Shown here piece by piece: positions 4,851 to 16,539 of a DNA stretch of 41,868 nt. The DNA is from Rubrivivax sp. (GTDB lineage: Bacteria > Pseudomonadota > Gammaproteobacteria > Burkholderiales > Burkholderiaceae): positions 1 through 41,868 of the forward strand of contig JAEUOZ010000056.1 of NCBI GenBank assembly GCA_016790225.1, given 5' to 3'. Both the position numbers and the translations under genes were made by a program. The first letter of the stretch is position 1. Each line of letters opens with the position of its first letter. The notes under the pieces are model-generated. The model made no database searches, had not been told where the DNA came from, and saw only the letters and a list, made by a program, of their open reading frames with translations.

Positions 4851-5005
4851 CTTCCGGTAAGGCCGCGGCAGCGGCCCGGGTGCCTCGCACTCTACGGCCG
4901 AATGCGGCCGCGCCTTGTCGGTTGCGGGACATGGCCTGCCGGGCGGGCCGCGACCAGCTGCGTGAGGCCCGGTCCCGCGGCTGAACCGGTAGAGTGCGGC
5001 CCCGC

Positions 5006-6010
5006 ATGCCCGATACCCTCGCCGTCGCTTCTCGACCCTGGCGCCTGTCCGTCGCCCCGATGATGGACTGGACCGATCGCCACTGCCGCTTCTTCCATCG
5101 CCTGATCACGCGCCAGACGCGGCTGTATACGGAGATGGTGACCACCGGCGCGCTGCTGCATGGCGACCTGCCCCGACACCTGGATTTCGATGCGGCGGAG
5201 CATCCGGTGGCCTTGCAGCTGGGCGGCAGCGAGCCCGAGGATCTGGCCGCCTGCGCGCGGCTGGCCCAGCGCTGGGGCTATGACGAGCTCAACCTGAACT
5301 GCGGCTGCCCGAGCGAGCGTGTGCAGCGTGGCGCTTTCGGGGCCTGCCTGATGGCCGAGGCCGGCCTGGTGGCGGACGGCGTGGCCGCCATGCGCGAGGC
5401 CTGCACCTTGCCGGTGACGGTGAAGCACCGCATCGGCATCGACCGTGTCGAGAGCTACGCCTTCGTGCGCGATTTTGTGGGCACGGTCTGGCAGCGCGGC
5501 GGCTGCGAGGTCTTCATCGTTCACGCCCGCAACGCGTGGCTGCAGGGCCTCAGCCCCAAGCAGAACCGCGAGATCCCGCCGCTGCGCCCTGAACTCGTGC
5601 ACCGGCTGAAGCGGGACTTTCCTCAGCTGACGATCATCATCAACGGCGGCCTGGCCGACGATGCGGCCATCGAAGCGCAGTTGCAGGCGGTGGACGGCGT
5701 GATGATCGGCCGCCACGCCTACCACGAGCCCTGGTCGATGGCTGCTTGGGATCAGCGCTTCTTCGGCGCGCATGAGCCGCCGGCGGCCTCGCGCCAGGCG
5801 GTCGAGGAGGCGATGGTGGCCTACATGGAGCGCGAGGCAGCCGCCCGCGGCACCCCTTGGGCGCACATCGCGCGCCACATGCTCGGCTTGTACAACGGCC
5901 AGCCGGGGGCGCGGCGCTGGCGTCAGGTGTGGAGTGACCACCGGCTGAAGGCCCTGCCGCCGCGGGAGGTGTGGCAGCAGGCCACGGGGCGCTTGCAGGT
6001 GGCGGCCTGA
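5006..6010 (+). CDS. dusA: tRNA-dihydrouridine(20/20a) synthase DusA
   Basis: FMN- and NADPH-dependent reduction of uridines 20 and 20a in the D-loop of tRNAs. The 334-residue product has the DusA signature RLSVAPMMDWTDRHCRFFHR at the FMN-binding barrel start, YTEMVTTGALLHGD next, and the catalytic cysteine motif NLNCGCPSERV (Cys101). The MMDWTDRHCR form distinguishes DusA from DusB and DusC. I chose the ATG at 5006; an in-frame GTG at 4994 would add four residues. Neither start has a strong ribosome binding site. The gene is convergent with the Sco-type gene, 17 bases away. Confidence 0.95.
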   Translation: MPDTLAVASRPWRLSVAPMMDWTDRHCRFFHRLITRQTRLYTEMVTTGALLHGDLPRHLDFDAAEHPVALQLGGSEPEDLAACARLAQRWGYDELNLNCGCPSERVQRGAFGACLMAEAGLVADGVAAMREACTLPVTVKHRIGIDRVESYAFVRDFVGTVWQRGGCEVFIVHARNAWLQGLSPKQNREIPPLRPELVHRLKRDFPQLTIIINGGLADDAAIEAQLQAVDGVMIGRHAYHEPWSMAAWDQRFFGAHEPPAASRQAVEEAMVAYMEREAAARGTPWAHIARHMLGLYNGQPGARRWRQVWSDHRLKALPPREVWQQATGRLQVAA

Positions 6011-6027: not shown

Positions 6028-6645
6028 TCAGCCCAGGCGCGCCAGCTCGCCCAGGGCCTTGACGATGGACGTCGCACTGGCCAGCTCCGCCATGCGGTAG
6101 GCCAGGCGTCCTTGGCGGTCGAAGAGATAGACCTGCGGCGTGTGCCCATCGGCGCCCTTGCCGGGCGTGGGGCGGCTGGCCAGGAAGTCCGGCAGGCGCT
6201 CGGCCAGCGCCAGGGGTGGCACGGCAGCCAGCCACTGCTCCCCGGCATGGAAGCGCTGCCGCCAGGCCGCAAGGGCCCTGGCATCGTCACCAAGGGGATC
6301 GATGCTGACCGACAGCAGCTGCACGGCCGGCAGCCGGGCCTCGGCCAGCCGCTGCTGCAGGCCGGCAAAGACGGCACCCTGGATCGGGCAGGTGCTGCTG
6401 CATCCGGTGAACATCAGCTGCAAGGCCGTCAGCCGACCGCGCAAGAGATGTTCCAGACGCGTGGGGCGACCATCATGCAGCGTCAGCGGCAGGCCTGGCG
6501 CGGTGGGGCGAGGGTCCACCGGGCCCAGCAGCCCGTGGCCCGTGGTCTGCGCGCCCAGCAGCATCGGCCAGCCGCAGACGGCGGCGCCGCCGCTCAGCCC
6601 GCGCAGCAGATGACGTCGGGTGAAGCTGTGCATCGGGGTCGTCAT
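6028..6645 (-). CDS. SCO1/SenC-family copper protein
   Basis: A 205-residue thioredoxin-fold protein of the Sco family, which binds copper through two cysteines and one histidine and passes it to copper enzymes, classically CuA of cytochrome oxidase. The copper motif is GCSSTCP (Cys82, Cys86). The distal His is probably His168 in ADGHTPQVYLFD. An N-terminal twin-arginine-like signal (FTRRHLLRG plus a hydrophobic run) predicts export. The ATG overlaps the stop of the cytochrome c gene (ATGA), so the two are translationally coupled. Upstream on the same strand is the giant radical copper oxidase/peroxidase gene, which suggests that this Sco protein loads copper there. That link is inferred from position only. 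Confidence 0.9.
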   Translation of the reverse strand: MTTPMHSFTRRHLLRGLSGGAAVCGWPMLLGAQTTGHGLLGPVDPRPTAPGLPLTLHDGRPTRLEHLLRGRLTALQLMFTGCSSTCPIQGAVFAGLQQRLAEARLPAVQLLSVSIDPLGDDARALAAWRQRFHAGEQWLAAVPPLALAERLPDFLASRPTPGKGADGHTPQVYLFDRQGRLAYRMAELASATSIVKALGELARLG

Positions 6646-7073
6646 CGCTGCAACAGGTAAGACCACAGCGCGCGGCAGTCCTGCGCGGGGATTTCGTAGC
6701 GTGGCATCTCGCGAGGCAGCAGCACCCAGGCCGGGTCGACGCCGTCGCGCAGCAGCCGGCAGAAGCTTGCCTCGTCATAGTGCGAGGGCGGCCCGCCGCG
6801 GCGGGCCTGCGGCTGCAGCAGCGATCGCGCAGACAGGGCCGGGGCTATCGCGCTGCTGCCTTCATGGCAATTGATGCAGCGCGCCGCATGCGCCGGCAGC
6901 GCCTCGTCGTGTCCGCGCAGCTGGGCTGGCAGCGCGCGTTGGCCGTCGTACAGCGCGCGGCCGAGGGCGGCGTCTTCTGCGCTCATCGCAAACGCCAGGG
7001 CTCCCCCGCAAAGCGCCATGATCACGCCGCCCAGCAACAGCCGGTTGGGGGCAGAACGCAGCGTGAGGCTCAT
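6642..7073 (-). CDS. mono-haem c-type cytochrome
   Basis: A 143-residue exported class I-like cytochrome c. A signal peptide or anchor covers about residues 9-30, the haem-binding motif CINCH is at 66-70, and Met123 (PREMPRY) is the likely sixth ligand. I chose the start at 7073, which puts the hydrophobic segment at the N-terminus and is preceded by a GGAAG. The frame stays open to a GTG at 7220 that overlaps the stop of the upstream giant gene (GTGA). That longer form would place 49 Arg-rich residues before the signal and is less likely. The gene sits between the copper oxidase/peroxidase fusion and the Sco gene and is the obvious candidate electron donor for the fused di-haem domain (inference). 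Confidence 0.9.
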   Translation of the reverse strand: MSLTLRSAPNRLLLGGVIMALCGGALAFAMSAEDAALGRALYDGQRALPAQLRGHDEALPAHAARCINCHEGSSAIAPALSARSLLQPQARRGGPPSHYDEASFCRLLRDGVDPAWVLLPREMPRYEIPAQDCRALWSYLLQR

Positions 7074-7216: not shown

Positions 7217-10200
7217 TCACGGCAAGTACAAGGAGCCAGCCGGAATGGCACGGTACTCACTCGTGCCTGGCGGCAACCACAGCAGGCGCGCCATGGCGCC
7301 GCCGCCTTGCTCGAAGTACTCCATCGTCACCGTCACCCGCTGCCCGGCGGTCAGTGACACGGCCGTGCTGATGTTGGTGGTTGGCGCATGCACCGTCCAG
7401 TTGTTCACCAGTTGCTGCCCGTTGACCCACAAGCGCACCCCGTCGTCGCTGACGGTGGCGAAGCGGTAGCTTCCTGTGGTGGGCACCAGCAGCGTGCCGG
7501 TCCAGCGCACCGAGAAGTTGTCGGCTGTCACGCCCGGGCCTGGCGCGCCGTTGCCCCAATCGAAGTCCACCGCTTCGCTGCGGGTGAGTACCGCTGCGCC
7601 CGACAGCGTCGTGTTGCCGAAATACTGAGCGCGCAAGCCGGCACCGGCCGTGCTGGTGGCGGGGTAGAGCTGTGCCGCGGGGATCGGCAGGGCTGCGCTG
7701 GCACCGGGTGGGATCCAGTTCAGCCGGGCCACCGCGCCGACGCCGCGTTCGTAGTACTCCATGACGATGCTGACCCGCTGGCCTGCCGCCAGCGTCAGCG
7801 CGGCGCTGGTGTCGGCGGCGGGCGCGTGGTCGGTCCAGTTGTTGATCAGCAGCGCGCCGTTGACGTAGAGCCGCACGCCGTCGTCGCTGATGGTCTGGAA
7901 GCGGTAGCTGCCTGCCACCGTGGCCTGGACCTCGCCGTCCCAGCGCACGCTGAAGTTGTCGGCGGGCACACCGGTGGCCGGTGCACCGGTGCCCCAATCG
8001 AAGTTGATGGCCTCGGTGCGGGTCAGTACGGCATTGCCCGACAGCGACAGATTGGCAAAGTAGCGCCCGCGCAGGCCTGTGCCGCTGCCCGTGACCCCTC
8101 CCGCGGGCACCGCGGGCTCCTCGCGCCCGATCTGGCGCACGAAGGCAAGGACGTTGCCCAGTTCGGTGGCGCTCAAGGTCAAGCCGCTGTGCGCGCCGAT
8201 GGCGGCTTCCAGCGTGGCGGCCGAGCCGTCGTGCAGGTAGGGCGCCGTGGCCCAGGCATCGCGCAGCGTGGGCGTATCGATGCCTGTCAGGGCCGCCCCC
8301 AGGCGGCTGCCGCTGCCGGGCTTGAGCGTACCGATGTTGCGCAGGACGTTGCTGGCGCTGTCGCTGTAGTCGGTGCCGCCGTGGCAGCTCGCGCAGCTGT
8401 TGGCAAACACCGTGCGGCCAGCCGTGGCGGCGGCCGTGAGGGTGCCGTCGGCCTGACGCCAGGGCGTGGCGGCAAAGGCATTGAGCGAGCCCACGTAGGC
8501 GGCCAGAGCATCCAGATCGGCGCTGATGCCGCTCTTGCGGTCACCCAGCGGCTGGCTGCGTGTGCCGGTGTTGAACTGGGCATCGCTCATCAGTCCCGTC
8601 CCCTGTGCCAGTCTGCGGATCTGGCCTTCGAAGTCCTGCACCTCGTCGAAGTTGGCACTCCAGTGCAGGCGGCCCTGGGCGCCAGCGCGCCCTTGCAGGC
8701 TGATCGTGTTGCGCAGGCCTTCGCCGAAGCCGGTGAAGTCCCACACGCGGCCATCGTGGCCGCCGTCGTTGTGGCAGGCGGCGCAGCTGATGTAGGCATC
8801 GCGGCTCAGGCGCGGATCGCGGGCATCGTAGAAGAACTGCTTGCCGCGCAAGACCGCGGCGCTCAGGCGCTCGGTAGCGACCGAGGCCATGCTGGTCTGC
8901 AGTGGCAGGCTGCTCTCGCCGAAGCGCAGCAGGCGCGTCAGGTCATGTACGCCCACGGTGCGGTCCATGAAGTTCTGCACGTACAGGGTCAGCCCGTCGG
9001 CGGAGACCGCCAGGCCTTGCGGGGCACGGCCCACGTCCACGCGGAAGAGCTCGCGCTTGCCGATGGCGTCCACCACGGCCACATGCCGGCTGGCCTCCAG
9101 CGCCACGAACAGGTAGTTGCCGCCCGGGTGGAAGACCGCCGAGCTGGCGATGCCGGAGTTGTCGTGGTCGATGCGAGCGGCCAGGTCCTCGGCCTGTGTC
9201 GCAAGGTCGATGCGCGAGGAGATGGCCCGCAGCGTGTTCTGGAAGTCCAGGTCCAGCCCGTCGCGCAGCTTGCCGCGCTGGATGTTGTCCTGCTTGCTGG
9301 GCACCCAGGCGCTGCGCCCGTCAGGCGCGATGACCGGCGCGCCCAGGTAGTTGGGGATGCCGCGGCCTTGCACGGTGTTGTCGGCCTTCTCGCTGTGCTG
9401 CAGCACGATGGTGCGCTGCAGGGCCAGCGTGGCGGCGTCCAGTACCAGCAGCTCGGCGCCGCGCGTGGCACTGGGCTGCACGGTGGCCGTGCCTTCGCCC
9501 GGCAGCGGCGGCGTCACGAAGCGCGACACCAGCAGCTGCGATCCTGCGGCGTTGAGTGCGAGGTGCCGCGGGTTCGGACCCACGCTCACCGCCGTGCCCG
9601 GCGTTCCGTTGGCTGCCACGCGCACGACAGCGCCCGAGGCCTCCAGCGTCACATGGGCCGTGCCATCCGTGCCGATGACGATGCCGTAGGGCTGCGAGGC
9701 GCGCGGCAGGCTGACGGTCTGTGCGAGCGCCAGTGTGGCGGCATTGAGGATGCTCAGCGTGGCACTGCCCTTGTTGGCCACCCAGACGCGCCCGTCCGGC
9801 GCGAGGGCCAGCGTGCGCGGCGCACTGCCCACGGCAATCTCGGCCACGCGCTGGCGAGTCGCACTGTCGAAGACGCTGACCGAATCGTTGTCGGGGTTGA
9901 CGGCCCAGATGCGTGCAGAGGTGCCATTGCGAGGCTCCACGAGCACGGGCGTCGACGAGCGGCCGCCCAGGCCCTTGGTGCCTTCCACCGCCTGCCAGAA
10001 ACTGCGGGTGCTGACGCGGCCATCCGCCGTGCGCGCGGCCACGGTCACCAGGTACAGACCCGGCGCCGCGTAGACATGGCTCACGGTGTTGCTGGTGGAC
10101 CAGCCGCTGGTGCTGCCGTCACCGAAGGTCCACTGGTAGCTGTAGCTGCCGGCCAGGCTGGTCTCGGCGCTGTAGCTGGCCGTGCCACCGCTGGCGATGG

Positions 10201-13198
10201 GTGCCGCCAGCACCGGCTGGATCTGCGGCAGGGCGGATGTCACCGTCCAGGGAAACTGCATCGCGGCACTGCCGCCGCGGCTGTCGTCCACCGTGATGGT
10301 GACATTGAAGCTGCCGGCCGCGCTGGGGGCGCCGCTGATCACGCCGGTGCCCGGGGCGATCGACAGGCCCGCGGGCAGGCCGGCAGCGCGCCAGGTGAGG
10401 AGGTCGCCATCGGGATCGTTGGCGCTCAGGCTCAGGCTGGCACTGACACCCTGCTCGGTGGTCTGCGGCGAGGGTGTCACCACGCTGGGCGGCCGGTTGA
10501 CGGCGGGCTGTCCATGCACCTGCACCTCGGCCAGGTGGAGGAAGTTGGTGCCGGCCAGCTGCACGCGCACATAACGTCCCCGTGCATTGGCGGTGCTGAT
10601 CAGCGTGTTGCGGGGAGCGATGCCCGAGTACTGGCTGCGCCAGACCGTGGCGTCGGCCAGCAGCTGGGCCAGGCTGCGGCCCTGCATCGGCGTATCGGAG
10701 ACCAGCAGGTAGAAATTGGACAGACGTTCGCCGCAGCAGTCGGTGCGGTTCCACAGGCGCACGGCGTTCAGCGCGTGGCTGCTGCCCAGGTCCACTTCCC
10801 ACCAGGCGTTGGCCTCGCTGTTGGTGTGCGCAACGGAGCCCGCGGCCCAGTTGCCATCGACGTTTCCATCCACGGCTCGCGCAGCGGGGCCGCCAAACGG
10901 GTCCGACGACTGGCTGGCCGCCTTGCCCAGCGCCAGGTTGTTGAACCAGACCGTCTTCTCGGTCTTGTCCACACCCAGATCGGCCAGGTTGCCGCTGGCC
11001 ACCGGGTTGCCCCAGTTGACGCCGTCGCTGCTGCGGTAGACGTTGAAGCGGGCGATCATGCCGTTGTTGCTGACGTCCTGGCGGGGCAGCACGCGCAGCC
11101 CCGTCACATCGGTGGCGATGCCCAGGTTGATGGTGAAGCTGTGCGGATGTGCCGGGTTGGCGGCCTGCCACTGGGTGTGCCAGATGGTGGCCGGGTTGCC
11201 GTCGATCGCATTCGCGGCGGCGCCGTTCTCACCGGTGACCTCCTGGCTGCTGGCCGAGACCTGCCACGCGCTGCGCGCGAGCGGCTGGCCATCGACGCCG
11301 ACCAGATTGATCTCGGCGGCGGAGGTCCAGGGATTGCCGGCCACCTCGGACAGGGCTTCCAGGCGCACGAAGCGCGTCTGGCCCGGCTGCTGCACGGTCC
11401 AGCGGAAGTCCGTGCTCGTGGTCACGCCGGCCACCGTGGCGCGCACGGTGACGCGCGAGGTGCCCGCGCTGCTGGGTGTGCCGCTGATGCGGCCCGTGCT
11501 GGCATCGATGGCCAGGCCGCTGGGCAGGCCGCTGGCAGAGAAGCTGGGCGCCGCTGCGCCAGGCGCGGTGAATGCCGGCTGCAAGGCCACGCTGGCACCG
11601 GTGGTGGAGGCCTGGTCATTGATCGCGTTCCACTGCACCGAACCATCCAGGGCGATGCGCACGATGCGTGCCACCGAAGGCGTGCCGTCGGCATTCATCG
11701 CAAACAGCATCCAGTCGCCCGGCAGGGCCCAGCCGGGGTTGGTGGGCACGTCCACGCTGTAGCTGTTGGTGCCTGCGCTGCGGAAGCTCAGTGACAGGCG
11801 GCGCTGGTCGTTGTTGACGGTATGCGTGGTGGAGGACAGGCGCACCATCGCGAAGCTGCTGACAGCGCTGTCGGTGCTGACGGTCATGCTCTGGCCGTAG
11901 CGCACGCTGGCAGGCGCAGCAGTGATCACCGGGCGCGTGGCGGGCGTGCCATCGGGTTTGATCAGGTAGTGCGGCGTGAGGATCTGCAGATCCGGGTGGT
12001 TGGCGGCGCAGCCGGCACCGCACAGGCCGCCACCGGCCGAGAGCACGCGCCCGTCGGGCAGCAGGATGGCCACGCTGTGGTAATTGCGCGGCACGCTGAT
12101 GGGCGGCAGCGGCGAGAAGGTCTCGCTGACCGGGTCGAAGAGCTCCGGCACCAGCACCGAGTTGTTGTCGGAGAAGCCGACTGCGAAGGTCTGGCCGCCG
12201 ACGATCACGACCTGTCCGTTGGGCAGCACCACGCTGTTGTGGAAGGCGCGCCGGTAGGCCATCGGCGCGAGCTTGCGCACGGTGACGCCGTTGTTGATGT
12301 CGATGACGTAGCTGTTGTTGTTGGCGTTGACGCTGTCGTAGCCCGGACCGCCGCCGGTCTTCAGGATCTTGCCGGTGTCGTACATCACCGTGTTGCCGCT
12401 GACGCTGAACTCGTCGTCGCCGCGTGGGCCCGCGCTGACCACCGAGCCATTGCCCTCGGTGCTGATCCAGTGCATGTTCACGCCAGGGCCGGCATGGAAG
12501 ACCTTGCCGTTGCCCGCCGGCAGCAGCATGAAGTGGCTGTCCATGCCGAAGTTGCGCGTGTTGTCCACCGAGAGCATCGGGTCGATGGGGATGCCGGTCT
12601 TGCGCTGCCAGCCGCCGGTGGCTGTCCAGACCTCGCCGTTCTTGTTGCCGACGCCGCCGCTCCAGGAGCCGCCGAGCGTGAGCACCGAGCCGTCCTTGAG
12701 CAGGGTGTTGGCCTGGTAGCCGCGCGCTATGCTCATGGCCGGCCCGATGGTCCAGGCTCCGTTGGCGGGGTTGAAGAGGCTGGTGCGCGTGGAACTGATG
12801 CCGCCGTTGACCAGCAAGCGACCATCGGCCAGGTTGGTGGTGCCCGGGCAGAACATGTTGTGGCCGGTTTCCGTGACAGACCGCTCGGTGACGGTACCGT
12901 TGGCGGGGTCAAACGTCGCAAAGTAGGTGCGTCCCGTGGTGCCGCCGAAGCTGAATTTCTCCTCGGCCGACCACAGCAGCACCTTGCCGTCGGGCAGGTT
13001 GGCCATCGCTGCCGGTACCAGGGGCAAGGAACCAGCCGGTGACCAGCGCGCGCCGGATGGTGCGATCACGGCCAGTGGGCGCTGGCGCGCCTCGGCGGGT
13101 GCAGCCGTTGAGGTGGCATCGCCGCCGCCGCCGCAGGCGGCCAGCAGGGCGGCGGTCAGCAGGGTGACGGAACAGGCAAGCAGGCGCGGGCGGATCAT
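7217..13198 (-). CDS. giant lipoprotein: galactose-oxidase-like radical copper oxidase fused to a di-haem peroxidase-like domain
   Basis: One open frame of 1993 codons. Residues 1-22 are a lipoprotein signal (lipobox LLAAC, Cys22). Residues 50-425 are a Kelch propeller and 425-515 the galactose-oxidase C-terminal Ig-like domain. The radical-copper residues align with the fungal enzyme: Cys117 (NMFCPG), Tyr161 (ARGYQ), Trp179 (GGSWSGG), Tyr373-His374 (RNYHS) and His459 (THTVNNDQRR). Then follow: Ig-like (525-603), two discoidin/F5-8C modules (605-752, 753-897), Ig-like (903-988), PKD (990-1072), a YVTN-type beta-propeller (1080-1425), a di-haem peroxidase/MauG-like domain with CAACH (1472-1476), CASCH (1602-1606) and TAPYLHDGS, and two PA14 domains (1705-1845, 1853-1993). 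The oxidase makes peroxide; the haem domain may consume it. Starts at 13204 (ATG) or 13228 (GTG) are also possible. Function is inferred from motifs. Confidence 0.9.
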   Translation of the reverse strand: MIRPRLLACSVTLLTAALLAACGGGGDATSTAAPAEARQRPLAVIAPSGARWSPAGSLPLVPAAMANLPDGKVLLWSAEEKFSFGGTTGRTYFATFDPANGTVTERSVTETGHNMFCPGTTNLADGRLLVNGGISSTRTSLFNPANGAWTIGPAMSIARGYQANTLLKDGSVLTLGGSWSGGVGNKNGEVWTATGGWQRKTGIPIDPMLSVDNTRNFGMDSHFMLLPAGNGKVFHAGPGVNMHWISTEGNGSVVSAGPRGDDEFSVSGNTVMYDTGKILKTGGGPGYDSVNANNNSYVIDINNGVTVRKLAPMAYRRAFHNSVVLPNGQVVIVGGQTFAVGFSDNNSVLVPELFDPVSETFSPLPPISVPRNYHSVAILLPDGRVLSAGGGLCGAGCAANHPDLQILTPHYLIKPDGTPATRPVITAAPASVRYGQSMTVSTDSAVSSFAMVRLSSTTHTVNNDQRRLSLSFRSAGTNSYSVDVPTNPGWALPGDWMLFAMNADGTPSVARIVRIALDGSVQWNAINDQASTTGASVALQPAFTAPGAAAPSFSASGLPSGLAIDASTGRISGTPSSAGTSRVTVRATVAGVTTSTDFRWTVQQPGQTRFVRLEALSEVAGNPWTSAAEINLVGVDGQPLARSAWQVSASSQEVTGENGAAANAIDGNPATIWHTQWQAANPAHPHSFTINLGIATDVTGLRVLPRQDVSNNGMIARFNVYRSSDGVNWGNPVASGNLADLGVDKTEKTVWFNNLALGKAASQSSDPFGGPAARAVDGNVDGNWAAGSVAHTNSEANAWWEVDLGSSHALNAVRLWNRTDCCGERLSNFYLLVSDTPMQGRSLAQLLADATVWRSQYSGIAPRNTLISTANARGRYVRVQLAGTNFLHLAEVQVHGQPAVNRPPSVVTPSPQTTEQGVSASLSLSANDPDGDLLTWRAAGLPAGLSIAPGTGVISGAPSAAGSFNVTITVDDSRGGSAAMQFPWTVTSALPQIQPVLAAPIASGGTASYSAETSLAGSYSYQWTFGDGSTSGWSTSNTVSHVYAAPGLYLVTVAARTADGRVSTRSFWQAVEGTKGLGGRSSTPVLVEPRNGTSARIWAVNPDNDSVSVFDSATRQRVAEIAVGSAPRTLALAPDGRVWVANKGSATLSILNAATLALAQTVSLPRASQPYGIVIGTDGTAHVTLEASGAVVRVAANGTPGTAVSVGPNPRHLALNAAGSQLLVSRFVTPPLPGEGTATVQPSATRGAELLVLDAATLALQRTIVLQHSEKADNTVQGRGIPNYLGAPVIAPDGRSAWVPSKQDNIQRGKLRDGLDLDFQNTLRAISSRIDLATQAEDLAARIDHDNSGIASSAVFHPGGNYLFVALEASRHVAVVDAIGKRELFRVDVGRAPQGLAVSADGLTLYVQNFMDRTVGVHDLTRLLRFGESSLPLQTSMASVATERLSAAVLRGKQFFYDARDPRLSRDAYISCAACHNDGGHDGRVWDFTGFGEGLRNTISLQGRAGAQGRLHWSANFDEVQDFEGQIRRLAQGTGLMSDAQFNTGTRSQPLGDRKSGISADLDALAAYVGSLNAFAATPWRQADGTLTAAATAGRTVFANSCASCHGGTDYSDSASNVLRNIGTLKPGSGSRLGAALTGIDTPTLRDAWATAPYLHDGSAATLEAAIGAHSGLTLSATELGNVLAFVRQIGREEPAVPAGGVTGSGTGLRGRYFANLSLSGNAVLTRTEAINFDWGTGAPATGVPADNFSVRWDGEVQATVAGSYRFQTISDDGVRLYVNGALLINNWTDHAPAADTSAALTLAAGQRVSIVMEYYERGVGAVARLNWIPPGASAALPIPAAQLYPATSTAGAGLRAQYFGNTTLSGAAVLTRSEAVDFDWGNGAPGPGVTADNFSVRWTGTLLVPTTGSYRFATVSDDGVRLWVNGQQLVNNWTVHAPTTNISTAVSLTAGQRVTVTMEYFEQGGGAMARLLWLPPGTSEYRAIPAGSLYLP

Positions 13199-13432
13199 CG
13201 GCATCACCAGGCAAAGGCAAGGCCACACCGGGGCGGAACGGCCGCGCCGAAGGCTCGTGCAAGGGGGATGCGTGGATGCTAGGCAGCCGGGCGCGGCACA
13301 GGGGGCAGGCGGCGGCCCGGGATCACGGGGCCACCCGCCAGTTGCGGGCGCGCAGCTGAGGGGCGCCCGGCGGCCATGAGCTCAAGACCGTGGCCGATGC
13401 GCGCTTGGAACCCGGCGCCGCGGCCGGGTGGT

Positions 13433-15103
13433 TCACATGCCGGCGTAATTCGGCCCGCCGCCGCCTTCCGGCGTCACCCAGACGATGTTCTGCGTGGGGT
13501 CCTTGATGTCGCAGGTCTTGCAGTGCACGCAGTTCTGCGCGTTGATGACCAGGCGGTCCTGGCCGTCGGTGTTGACGAACTCGTAGACACCGGCGGGGCA
13601 GTAGCGGCTTTCGGGGCCGGCGTAGCGCGACAGGTTGATGGCCACCGGCACGCTGCTGTCCTTGAGCGTCAGGTGCGCGGGCTGGTTTTCCTCGTGGTTG
13701 GTGTTGCTGATGAAGACCGAGCTTAGACGGTCGAAGCTCAGCTTGCCATCGGGCTTGGGATAGCGGATCGGCTCGCACTGGCTGGCGGCATGCATGCGGG
13801 CGTGGTCCGCCCCGTGGCGGTGGATCGTCCACGGCGGGCTCTTGATGCCCAGTTTGGGCAGCAGCCATTGCTCGATGCCCGTCATCAGCATGCCGACGGT
13901 GTTGCCCTTCTTGAACCACTGCTTGAAGTTGCGCGACTGGTTCAGCTCCGTCCACAGCCAGCTCTGGCGGAAGGCATCCGGGTAGGCCTGCAGTTCGTCA
14001 TGGCTGCGGCCGGCGGCGATGGCGGCCGCTGCGGCTTCGGCGGCCAGCATGCCGGTCTTGATGGCAGCGTGGCTGCCCTTGATGCGGGCGGCGTTCAAGG
14101 TGCCTGCGTCACAGCCCACCAGCGCGCCGCCGGGAAACACCAGCTTGGGCAGGCTCAGCAGCCCGCCGGCCGTGATGGCCCGGGCGCCGTAGCCGATGCG
14201 CTTGCCACCTTCGATGTGGGTGCGGATCGCCGGGTGCATCTTCCAGCGCTGCATCTCCTCGAAGGGGCTGAGCCAGGGGTTCTGGTAGTCCAGGCCCACC
14301 ACATAGCCCAGCGTGACGCGGTTGCCCTCCAGGTGGTAGAGGAAGCCGCCGCCGTAGGTGTTTTCGTCGACCGGCCAGCCGGCGGTGTGCACGACCAGGC
14401 CCGGGTGCGCCTGGGCCGCCGGCACCTCCCAGAGTTCCTTGACGCCGATGGCATAACTCTGGGGGTCACGGTCGGCATCCAGCCCGAAGCGTGCGATCAG
14501 CTGCTTGCCCAGGTGCCCGCGCGAGCCTTCGGCGAAGATCGTGTACTTCGCTGTCAGCTCCATGCCCAGCTGGAAGCCGTCGTGCGGCTGCCCGTCCTTG
14601 CCGATGCCCTGGTTGCCGGTGGCCACGCCCCGCACCTGCCCCTCTTCGGTGTACAGCACTTCCGCGGCCGTGAAGCCCGGAAAGATCTCCACGCCCAGTG
14701 CCTCGGCCTGCTCGCCCAGCCAGCGGGCCACGGCGCCGAGGCTGATCACATAGTTTCCGTGGTTGTGGAAGCAGCCCGGGATCAGCGCCTGGGGCACGGC
14801 CTGGTGGCCTTCGGCGTCCAGCATCAGCACCTGATCGGCGCTCACGGGCTGGTTCAGCGGCGCGCCGCGTTCCTTCCAGTCGGGCAGCAGCTCGGTCAGC
14901 GCGATGGGGTCCATCACGGCGCCGCTGAGGATGTGCGCACCCGGCTCGGACCCCTTCTCCAGCACCAGCACGGACAGCGCCGCGTCCAGCTGCTTCAGCC
15001 GGATGGCGGCGCTCAGACCGGCGGGACCGCCGCCGACGATGACCACGTCGTAGTCCATGGCCTCGCGCGGGCCGTAGGTGGCCAGGATGTCCTGGGGTGT
15101 CAT
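13433..15103 (-). CDS. electron-transfer flavoprotein:ubiquinone oxidoreductase
   Basis: Passes electrons from reduced ETF, fed by acyl-CoA and other dehydrogenases, to ubiquinone at the inner membrane. The 556-residue protein has the FAD-binding [15 protein letters not shown] near residues 24-38, the family stretches [18 protein letters not shown] and [20 protein letters not shown], and a C-terminal 4Fe-4S domain with YCPAGVYEF and [21 protein letters not shown] ribosome binding site seven bases before the ATG at 15103 decides the start over the longer open frame. No etfAB genes are in the window. The next gene upstream on the same strand is another flavoprotein dehydrogenase. Confidence 0.96.
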
Positions 15104-15283
15104 GTCGGGATCTCCTCGGGCACGGCGCAGCAGGCGCCGGCGAATGCGGGTCTTGTGCGCGGATTCTAGGGATCTGGCCTTCGCGTTGCCTCCTGGCACT
15201 CTAGAGCGCGGCGCCCAAAGCCGGCTGGCGGGCTGGCAGCACGGATACGCCCGGCACCGTCATTCCCGCCACAGAAAAGCCCG

Positions 15284-16414
15284 CTACTGCAGCGGCAGCT
15301 CCAGGGCCCGCATCACTTCTTCGGCCAGTGCCATCGAGGAGGTCAGGCCGGGGGACTCGATGCCGAACAGGTGCACCAGCCCTTCGCAGCCATGATCGCG
15401 CGGGCCGCTCAGCTGGAAGTCCGCCGCAGGCTGCCCCGGGCCGCTGAGCTTGGGGCGCACCCCGGTGTAGGCCGGCTGCAGCGAGCCCGCCGGCAGCTGC
15501 GGCCAGTAGCGGCGGATATCGGCTTCGAAGTTGGCAGCGCGTGTGCTGTCCACCGCGTAGTCCAGATCGGCTTCGCGCGTGCCCTCCGGCAACCACTGCA
15601 CATCCGGGCCAAAGCGCGCCTGGCCGCCCAGATCCAGCGTCAGGTGCACGCCAAGACCGCCGTCCACCGGCACGGGGTAGATCAGGTGCGAAAACGGCGA
15701 GCGCCCGGCCAGCGAGAAATAGTGCCCCTTGGCGACAAACTGGCGCGGAATTGCCTGGGCCGGGAAGCCGTCGATCGCAGCCGCCACCGATTGCGCGGCC
15801 AGCCCGCCGCAATTGACGATCAGGCGTGCCGCCATCTCGAAGGGCTCTTCGCCGGCCGTGCGCAGCACCCAGCGCCCGCTTTCGCGCCGTGCGCCCGCAA
15901 AAGGGCTCTTCAGCGCCAGCATGGCGCCATGCTCCTCAGCCTGGCCCAGCAGCGCGGTCATCAGGCCGTGGCTGTCGACGATGCCGGTGCGCGGCGAATG
16001 CAGAGCGCCCACGCAGTGCAGCGCCGGCTCCAGGGCGAGCGCTTCATCGCGGCTGATCAGGCGCAGGTCCTCCACGCCGTTGACCTGGCCGCGCTGCAGG
16101 AGGTTCTGCAGCTTGGGCAGCTCGGCCGGCGTGGTGGCCACCACCAGCTTGCCGCAGACCTGGTGCGCGATGCCGCGCTCGGCGCAATAGGCCATCAGGC
16201 GGTGGCGGCCACGCACGCACAGCCGCGCCTTGAGGCTGCCGGCGTCGTAGTAGTGGCCGGCGTGGATCACTTCGCTGTTGCGCGAGGACACGCCGCTGCC
16301 GATGGCCGACTCGCGCTCCACGATCACCACCTCCAGGCCATTCAAGGCCAAGGCCCGCGCCACGGCCAGGCCCACCACGCCCGCACCCACCACCACCGCG
16401 TCGATCTGATCCAT
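15284..16414 (-). CDS. L-2-hydroxyglutarate dehydrogenase-like FAD oxidoreductase
   Basis: A 376-residue DAO-family flavoprotein. The N-terminal dinucleotide-binding motif is VVVGAGVVGLAVARALAL, followed by SSRNSEVIHAGHYYDAGSLKARLCVRG, typical of the LhgO/L2HGDH group. YTGVRPKL and FGIESPGLTSSMALA near the end are also group hallmarks. Such enzymes oxidise L-2-hydroxyglutarate or similar 2-hydroxy acids and can hand electrons to quinone or to ETF. The nearby ETF:quinone oxidoreductase gene fits that, but the exact substrate is not provable here. The start at 16414 (MDQIDA) sits just before the FAD motif. The gene is divergent from the SDR gene. Confidence 0.88.
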   Translation of the reverse strand: MDQIDAVVVGAGVVGLAVARALALNGLEVVIVERESAIGSGVSSRNSEVIHAGHYYDAGSLKARLCVRGRHRLMAYCAERGIAHQVCGKLVVATTPAELPKLQNLLQRGQVNGVEDLRLISRDEALALEPALHCVGALHSPRTGIVDSHGLMTALLGQAEEHGAMLALKSPFAGARRESGRWVLRTAGEEPFEMAARLIVNCGGLAAQSVAAAIDGFPAQAIPRQFVAKGHYFSLAGRSPFSHLIYPVPVDGGLGVHLTLDLGGQARFGPDVQWLPEGTREADLDYAVDSTRAANFEADIRRYWPQLPAGSLQPAYTGVRPKLSGPGQPAADFQLSGPRDHGCEGLVHLFGIESPGLTSSMALAEEVMRALELPLQ

Positions 16415-16539
16415 GCGGCGGCATTGTGCCGGCCGGTCCGCCCGGCCCCGGCTGCGTCGGCCCCCAAGGTCTTGGGAGCGCCCGAAGCCGCGTGGAGCCC
16501 GTGCTATCTTCCCGCGCTGTGTGTTGACCAACGGAGGGC

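Follow-up and report, generated by a model that had tools for sequence, protein, structure and literature searches.

To our knowledge, the way in which most copper radical oxidases are activated in nature is an open question. These enzymes convert an alcohol and O2 to an aldehyde and H2O2, require a tyrosyl radical, and in vitro reach full activity only after a peroxidase has activated them (PMC9770985). In the fungal AlcOx-peroxidase tandem, a copper radical oxidase is paired with a class II haem peroxidase encoded by a second gene, and this partner activates the inactive copper site by one-electron oxidation (PMC9770985). Here we describe a single gene of Rubrivivax sp. that fuses an oxidase of this kind to a dihaem module of unrelated fold. 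The gene lies on contig JAEUOZ010000056.1 of assembly GCA_016790225.1, positions 1 to 41,868; this whole stretch of 41,868 nucleotides is termed the window.

Copper enzymes have also been described together with a copper chaperone and a haem protein. Streptomyces GlxA is a copper radical oxidase whose maturation, including the Tyr-Cys cross-link, depends at low copper on both the chaperone Sco and a haem peroxidase, DtpA; the latter has been proposed to alter the redox state of copper and also to remove peroxide (PMC4736821). In that system the peroxidase is a separate DyP enzyme, whereas the haem partner described here is a c-type dihaem module of the same polypeptide. In the mtoX-SCO1/senC-mauG cluster, genes for SCO1 and a MauG-like dihaem protein likewise accompany that of a copper enzyme which forms peroxide, and SCO1-MauG fusions exist (PMC5739008); however, its copper enzyme is SBP56, and the dihaem partner is free or fused to SCO1 rather than to an oxidase.

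Other relatives resemble the dihaem part. Hydrazine synthase beta-gamma and its fused environmental homologues share with it a propeller followed by a dihaem domain and, by alignment, an axial His on the second haem (PMC12758564, PMC12607021). Beta-gamma-like proteins are prevalent in environmental bacteria (PMC12758564), and the bis-His haem of gamma-II has been described as taking electrons near a cytochrome c site (PMC12607021). MauG and canonical bacterial cytochrome c peroxidases belong to the same superfamily as the module and share its two CxxCH motifs, PYxHDG motif and inter-haem Trp, but the module has a His in place of the peroxidases' axial Met, and its gene neighbours encode SCO1 and a cytochrome rather than mau proteins. 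Judging by a paper title alone, a bacterial AA5 oxidase has reportedly been found fused to an inactive CE3 domain. An earlier note on this DNA, made from the sequence alone, had recognized the oxidase-dihaem combination and knew of no characterized protein with this architecture; likewise, none of the titles and abstract starts listed by searches of open-licence PMC concerned a galactose oxidase joined to a dihaem domain. The main text of the BthA superfamily paper contains none of the words "fused", "fusion" or "galactose" (PMC6405878). All parts of the protein have known counterparts; none of the titles and abstract starts listed describes their combination, the genes beside it or the pairing across genomes.

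Results

The fusion gene is one intact open frame that joins a galactose-oxidase-like domain to a MauG/cytochrome c peroxidase-like domain, as the earlier note had claimed. The frame can be extended to a GTG at 13228 (7217..13228, minus strand), giving 2003 rather than 1993 amino acids; residues are numbered here from the Met encoded at 13198. In phmmer searches of the PDB, the protein scored 571 bits to the bacterial galactose oxidase 9g43, from Pseudoarthrobacter siccitolerans according to its entry, and 480 bits to the Fusarium enzyme 1gof. Pfam recognized Kelch and GO-like_E_set (84 bits) domains. All six galactose-oxidase (AA5) active-site residues stood where the earlier note had placed them (Cys117, Tyr161, Trp179, Tyr373, His374 and His459).

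7217..13198, minus strand: fusion gene, 1993 amino acids, intact frame; both halves in the same order in 195/201 relatives examined
11645..13051, minus strand: galactose-oxidase-like (AA5) Kelch propeller and E-set, residues 50-518 (PF09118, Kelch_6; PDB matches 9g43, 1gof)
12848..12850, minus strand: Cys117, thioether partner; C in 190/190 aligned rows
12716..12718, minus strand: Tyr161, cross-linked radical Tyr; Y in 190/190 aligned rows
12662..12664, minus strand: Trp179, stacking Trp; W in 148/164 aligned rows, unconserved in divergent fused relatives
12077..12082, minus strand: Tyr373-His374, copper ligands; 191/191 aligned rows each
11822..11824, minus strand: His459, copper ligand; 192/192 aligned rows

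The protein has the Cys-Tyr pair, the axial Tyr, the two His copper ligands, the Kelch propeller and the GO-like E-set domain expected of AA5 enzymes, and a predicted model of a fused relative (L032) matched galactose oxidases and other AA5 enzymes (TMt 0.59-0.83). Like 9g43 and 1gof, it also carries a discoidin-type domain. It differs from those enzymes in that its discoidin domains come after the oxidase and in that it bears PA14 domains and a propeller-dihaem module. Collectively, these sequence data support a complete copper-radical-oxidase active site, and the oxidase half should form H2O2 in an alcohol-dependent manner.

The second half consists of a YVTN beta-propeller, which the earlier note had missed, and a dihaem domain with a CCP_MauG match of 36 bits (cut-off 25.6). 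The two CxxCH motifs and the TAPYLHDGS motif (residues 1651-1659) reported earlier were all present.

8915..9946, minus strand: YVTN beta-propeller, residues 1085-1428 (YncE/YVTN-like propeller matches, Pfam/NCBIfam)
8084..8926, minus strand: dihaem domain of the MauG/cytochrome c peroxidase (CCP) superfamily, residues 1425-1705 (CCP_MauG match, PDB sequence matches)
8771..8785, minus strand: first haem motif CAACH, residues 1472-1476; C, C and H each in 200/200 aligned rows
8660..8665, minus strand: His1512-Trp1513, 199/199 aligned rows each; the Trp aligns with the inter-haem Trp of WDGR
8381..8395, minus strand: second haem motif CASCH, residues 1602-1606; 199/199 aligned rows
8189..8191, minus strand: His1670, at the axial Met position of classical peroxidases by alignment to 3o5c and 1iqc, predicted bis-His haem; His in 199/199 aligned rows

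A structure model predicted the propeller and the dihaem domain as one unit, with a predicted template-modelling score (pTM) of 0.93. Among PDB sequences, the dihaem domain matched hydrazine synthase gamma best (78.7 bits), followed by bacterial cytochrome c peroxidases at 75.7 and 70.4 bits. For the propeller and dihaem parts, the leading solved relatives were hydrazine synthase beta and gamma, with a narrow lead. The Foldseek and VIA lists for the model hold propellers, and the absence of dihaem chains from them is no evidence.

In classical peroxidases, the Met aligned in 3o5c and 1iqc is an axial ligand of the second haem; in the fusion protein, His1670 aligned there instead. MauG has a Tyr as the sixth ligand of its second haem and is encoded in a mau operon. 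A distal His on the first haem in the resting state is a trait of canonical cytochrome c peroxidases, and no His was found at that position in a pairwise alignment to 1zzh, which is weakly aligned there. Trp1513 aligned with the WDGR Trp of two dihaem peroxidases, a match by alignment only; an inter-haem Trp is common to peroxidases and MauG, and hydrazine synthase has a His at this place (PMC12758564). By model and alignment, the combination of a propeller and a dihaem domain with a His-ligated second haem is that of hydrazine synthase beta-gamma. However, the inter-haem Trp is kept and the protein scored only 56.5 bits against the NCBIfam family of hydrazine synthase beta-gamma fusions (NF052342), far below the cut-off of 1250. 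No hydrazine synthase alpha subunit was recognized in the two genes downstream of the fusion gene, and no mau-type gene was found among the 25 window frames scanned with Pfam, a scan that ends at 23.7 kb. These alignments indicate that the dihaem part is not a classical peroxidase, its axial Met being replaced by an invariant His. The earlier assignment to a MauG/cytochrome c peroxidase-like domain is modified by these data: the propeller-dihaem unit is nearest, if narrowly, to hydrazine synthase beta/gamma and lacks the axial Met. The same data support a haem-binding domain of the MauG/CCP superfamily on the same lipoprotein-type chain as the oxidase.

The fusion architecture was found to be widespread by sequence rather than unique to the window. 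A search of 5.8 billion proteins scored 7993, with 2590 matches at E <= 1e-10, and many among the 120 matches listed share the Pfam set of the fusion protein. A survey of genome contigs confirmed 390 relatives. From these, 79 loci were retained, the majority belonging to Burkholderiales and others to Verrucomicrobia, Methylophilaceae, Leucothrix, Methylobrevis and further taxa. The 120 listed proteins, one of them the window's own, and 81 frames from the loci were combined into a set of 201 sequences, in which the two sources may overlap. The dihaem domain was present in 201/201 sequences and the oxidase in 195; the order oxidase, YVTN propeller, dihaem domain was the same in all 195. Five of the six sequences without both halves are frame pieces or frames ended by a contig end, and the sixth is P0102, of 1309 amino acids. 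The copper and haem ligands were invariant together wherever the relatives aligned, in rows that were picked by whole-protein similarity and may include the same protein twice.

The two halves differ in how far they have diverged. Among 73 fused proteins (2628 pairs), median pairwise identity was 35.6% for the oxidase halves and 58.0% for the modules, and the module was the more conserved part in 2301 pairs, as if one type of module serves varied oxidases. Domain swapping between oxidase subfamilies and the module, suggested by the identities and by differing quick trees, was not retained, as a single origin could not be rejected by approximately unbiased (AU) testing (p = 0.056 for group C and 0.439 for group A). 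The binding domains vary or are missing among relatives while the module is unchanged; P0020, for example, carries Ricin-type domains. Elsewhere in the family, one contig (L036:3-7227) holds two fusion-type genes in tandem, the first ended by the contig edge, three relatives (P0040, P0042 and P0106) share the length of one Variovorax rhizosphaerae contig, and a remote, standalone YVTN-dihaem protein from an Anoxybacillus plasmid (L087:4767-6812) retains the two CxxCH motifs, the final His and the Trp but lacks His1512.

The oxidase and the module were also found together when encoded apart. In an order sample of 399 genomes, the module was found in 12, a copper radical oxidase of the AA5 kind in 19, and both in 8, with three to four candidates scored per genome in this and the phylum sample, so that misses are possible. 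In four of these eight genomes (G017, G150, G307 and G336) the genes are separate, on different contigs or more than 1 Mb apart, and each genome encodes a single standalone module lipoprotein along with two or three oxidases that also stand alone. Of the 74 genomes in the family of G307, a sample that overlaps the order sample, 16 had the module and 16 an oxidase; 15 had both, one the module only, one the oxidase only and 57 neither, and 8 of the 15 had separate, distant genes only, again with one standalone module and two to three standalone oxidases. One standalone module per two to three oxidases is the pattern expected of a maturase or activator. The standalone YVTN-dihaem proteins (L135-L142 and L144; frames of 714-913 amino acids) lie far from the two or three galactose oxidases of their genomes; no oxidase was found in G418, which carries the module of L138.

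In a Verrucomicrobia family of 68 genomes, the module was present in 41, the oxidase in 38 and both in 36, with 5 module only, 2 oxidase only and 25 neither. At least one pair lies within one open frame in 34 of the 36; in G789 and G803 the pairs are on different contigs. One-sided Fisher tests, which ignore kinship and treat genomes as independent, gave p = 2e-9 for the order sample, 1e-13 for the G307 family, 1e-11 for the Verrucomicrobia family, and 9e-5 for the order sample after removal of the genomes taken as fused. One genome counted as fused, G376, has its oxidase and module matches at the ends of separate contigs. The module was found in 2 of 299 genomes in a phylum-wide sample, one of them the centre genome G001, and in one of three genomes in a genus search.

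Directly downstream of the fusion gene lie two genes that the earlier note had not mentioned.

6642..7073, minus strand: probable exported monohaem cytochrome c, 143 amino acids, one CINCH motif; apolar signal-like N-terminus
6028..6645, minus strand: SCO1/SenC copper chaperone with CSSTCP (PF02630, 42.5 bits, cut-off 22.8)

The chaperone has both the SCO1-SenC domain and a CxxxC motif (CSSTC), and its start overlaps the stop of the cytochrome gene (ATGA); the Pfam cytochrome match of 6642..7073 is weak, at 16 bits below a cut-off of 27. With profiles built from matches of the window's own two proteins, which a divergent SCO1 may escape, an SCO1 homologue was found at 50/79 related loci and a cytochrome homologue at 30/79, all 30 also with SCO1; no cytochrome homologue was found at the other 49, some of them truncated. 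SCO1 lies within 700 bp of the fusion gene at 47 of the 50 loci, the distances at the other 3 being distorted by broken or over-long frames, and on the same strand at 49. Away from the fusion gene, no SCO1 match above 50 bits was found in about 1.1 Mb of flanking DNA. Among the 29 loci with no SCO1 match, 8 end within 200 bp of the fusion gene on one or both sides. No SCO1 was found at the ten loci with group B oxidases, which come from Verrucomicrobia and Leucothrix and of which some have short flanks. A plasmid of the Comamonadaceae isolate OTU4NAUVB1 carries the same three genes, annotated as a discoidin protein, a hypothetical protein and an SCO family protein. Other genes flanking the set in the window look unrelated: an ETF-ubiquinone oxidoreductase (13433-15199, minus strand), a DAO-type FAD oxidoreductase (15284-16531, minus strand) and a dihydrouridine synthase (4994-6010, plus strand).

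The remainder of the fusion protein is made up of a signal peptide and domains that the earlier note had not listed.

13133..13198, minus strand: signal peptide of lipoprotein type; its lipobox motif LAAC has Cys22 as last residue (sequence motif)
10943..11263, minus strand: F5/8 type C (discoidin) domain 1 (PF00754)
10562..10879, minus strand: F5/8 type C domain 2, NedA-like (PF22633)
10238..10492, minus strand: He_PIG Ig-like domain, the better of two stretches (PF05345)
10001..10204, minus strand: PKD domain (PF00801)
7229..8089, minus strand: tandem PA14 domains (PF07691, 190.6 bits, two stretches; PDB 6qe7, 176.6 bits)

In total, two F5/8C, two He_PIG, one PKD and two PA14 domains and the YncE/YVTN-like propeller were added by Pfam and NCBIfam. 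Of the surface lipoprotein claimed earlier, it is the lipoprotein-type chain that the lipobox supports. An antisense open frame of 1468 codons (7388-11794, plus strand) overlies the fusion gene; since 89% of the third positions of the fusion gene are GC, this frame most likely arises mechanically from the high GC content.

Discussion

The domains, ligands, gene neighbours, conservation and genomic pairing read from these sequences place an oxidase, an SCO chaperone and a haem partner together, the same triad as in the GlxA and mtoX precedents but with the haem partner built in. On this ground, we favour the reading that the haem partner draws on the peroxide made by the oxidase to activate or mature the copper site and at the same time consumes it, and give this reading a probability of about 0.42. 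We infer peroxide production, the direction of electron flow, activation and substrate as follows. SCO1 would load copper into the oxidase, and the Cys117-Tyr161 cofactor would form. The oxidase would then act on a primary alcohol and release H2O2; the alcohol probably belongs to a glycan or other polymer that the F5/8C and PA14 domains bind. The YVTN-dihaem module would react with this H2O2, removing it at the same time, and would take electrons from the copper site, either maturing it or re-oxidizing a one-electron-reduced inactive form to the Cu(II)-Tyr radical; it may also take electrons from the neighbouring cytochrome c. A broader proposal, which we put forward only tentatively, is that the module is a dedicated, general haem activase of Gram-negative copper radical oxidases that uses their peroxide to mature or re-activate the Cu(II)-Tyr-radical site, acting in cis when fused and in trans on two or three oxidases when separate.

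Several observations weigh against these proposals. A fixed electron path between copper and haem is unlikely: linkers between oxidase and module vary from 112 to 1535 residues, the AF2 model of the 1200-residue fused relative L032 had a pTM of 0.63 despite good domains (predicted local distance difference test score 88.0), and the genes are separate and distant in some genomes. A fixed copper-haem geometry was not supported, given the linkers and the pTM, and facing copper and haem sites, which the earlier note proposed to look for by structure prediction, are unsupported as a requirement; a tethered or docking haem partner fits better. In addition, no module was found in 11 of the 19 oxidase-bearing genomes of the order sample. 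Five plasmid loci from Burkholderiaceae (L081-L085; hosts Cupriavidus, Paraburkholderia, Caballeronia and Burkholderia) carry cassettes of SCO1, oxidase and cytochrome c genes but lack a propeller-dihaem module within the 13 kb fetched for each. On each of these plasmids, the scope of the search, the best tblastn place covers 23-24% of the fusion, corresponding to the oxidase. Thus, the module is not needed by every such oxidase, and the cassettes suggest that SCO1 and the cytochrome go with the oxidase, the module being an added part in the fused lineages. In L081 the SCO1 and cytochrome genes are on the strand opposite the oxidase. That locus also holds a second, partial oxidase-like frame, and the annotated Paraburkholderia and Caballeronia plasmid oxidases of this set bear Ricin domains.

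Conversely, neither SCO1 nor the cytochrome was found beside any of 20 oxidase loci from oxidase-bearing genomes, of which 10 are the distant oxidases of the four standalone-module genomes and 10 are further loci. No oxidase was found in four module genomes (G030, G160, G258 and G358), where the module follows an LVIVD-type propeller in all six genes (L103-L107 and L114). Their N-termini are alike among themselves, and none matches the oxidase profile; that of L103 gave only PKD-like matches in the PDB. In the modules of the five genes compared, Asp stands in place of Gln at the site equivalent to residue 1526 of the window's protein. The possibility that these fusions are methanethiol-oxidase-like copper proteins was rejected, as Pfam gave LVIVD repeats rather than SBP56 for L103, L106 and L107. 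The strength of the co-occurrence is also lessened by the assumption of independence in the tests and by the choice of the G307 and G748 families, whose members were already known to carry the genes.

Peroxide disposal alone is a strong rival to activation or maturation, although we consider it less likely. Here the module would be a peroxidase that draws electrons from the neighbouring cytochrome c to reduce the oxidase's H2O2 to water; this would protect enzyme and cell surface, and the module would have no role at the copper site. The probable cytochrome c gene adjoining the fusion gene and the CCP-superfamily fold and motifs are consistent with this role, which would work alike in cis or in trans, and DtpA has likewise been proposed to remove the peroxide of GlxA (PMC4736821). 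However, the axial Met is replaced by an invariant His, a feature shared with hydrazine synthase gamma but not with the peroxidases that were aligned, 3o5c and 1iqc. Moreover, the cytochrome accompanies oxidases with no module nearby as well and was not found at 49/79 loci, some truncated, and ordinary periplasmic peroxidases could be expected to remove freely diffusing peroxide.

MauG and RoxA relatives oxidize macromolecules, and the family matches to them, together with the F5/8C and PA14 domains of carbohydrate- or polymer-binding type (Ricin-type in P0020), would suit a module that uses H2O2 on a bound substrate or on the released aldehyde, making the protein a two-step oxidative enzyme on a polymer. 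The variable or missing binding domains beside an unchanged module, and the existence of standalone modules, make such peroxide-driven oxidation improbable. It is quite improbable, too, that the module has other haem chemistry, reducing or sensing a different small molecule or passing electrons from the copper site to cytochrome c and so turning the oxidase into a dehydrogenase. The narrow lead of hydrazine synthase beta and gamma among solved relatives and the predicted bis-His haem, as in gamma-II (PMC12607021), point in that direction, but the module keeps the inter-haem Trp of peroxidases and MauG where hydrazine synthase has a His (PMC12758564), and its NCBIfam score of 56.5 is far from the cut-off of 1250. 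Finally, an incidental pairing of independently acting enzymes through domain shuffling in large surface lipoproteins is suggested by the beads-on-a-string build, the pTM of 0.63 for the fused relative and the existence of oxidase-only and module-only genomes, but is very improbable given the conserved order and ligands in 195 relatives and a phyletic pairing that includes separate genes.

The fusion gives a functional context for hydrazine-synthase-beta-gamma-like proteins. If the module is indeed an activase, it would fill in nature the role for which horseradish peroxidase is only a stand-in in vitro, and this physiological activator would come from a hydrazine-synthase beta-gamma-like haem family that is not tied to copper radical oxidases among the papers listed by searches of open-licence PMC. 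Oxidase-dihaem fusions may also yield self-activating biocatalysts. A widespread oxidase-dihaem family, often beside a copper chaperone and a cytochrome, makes the question of how copper radical oxidases are activated in nature directly testable.

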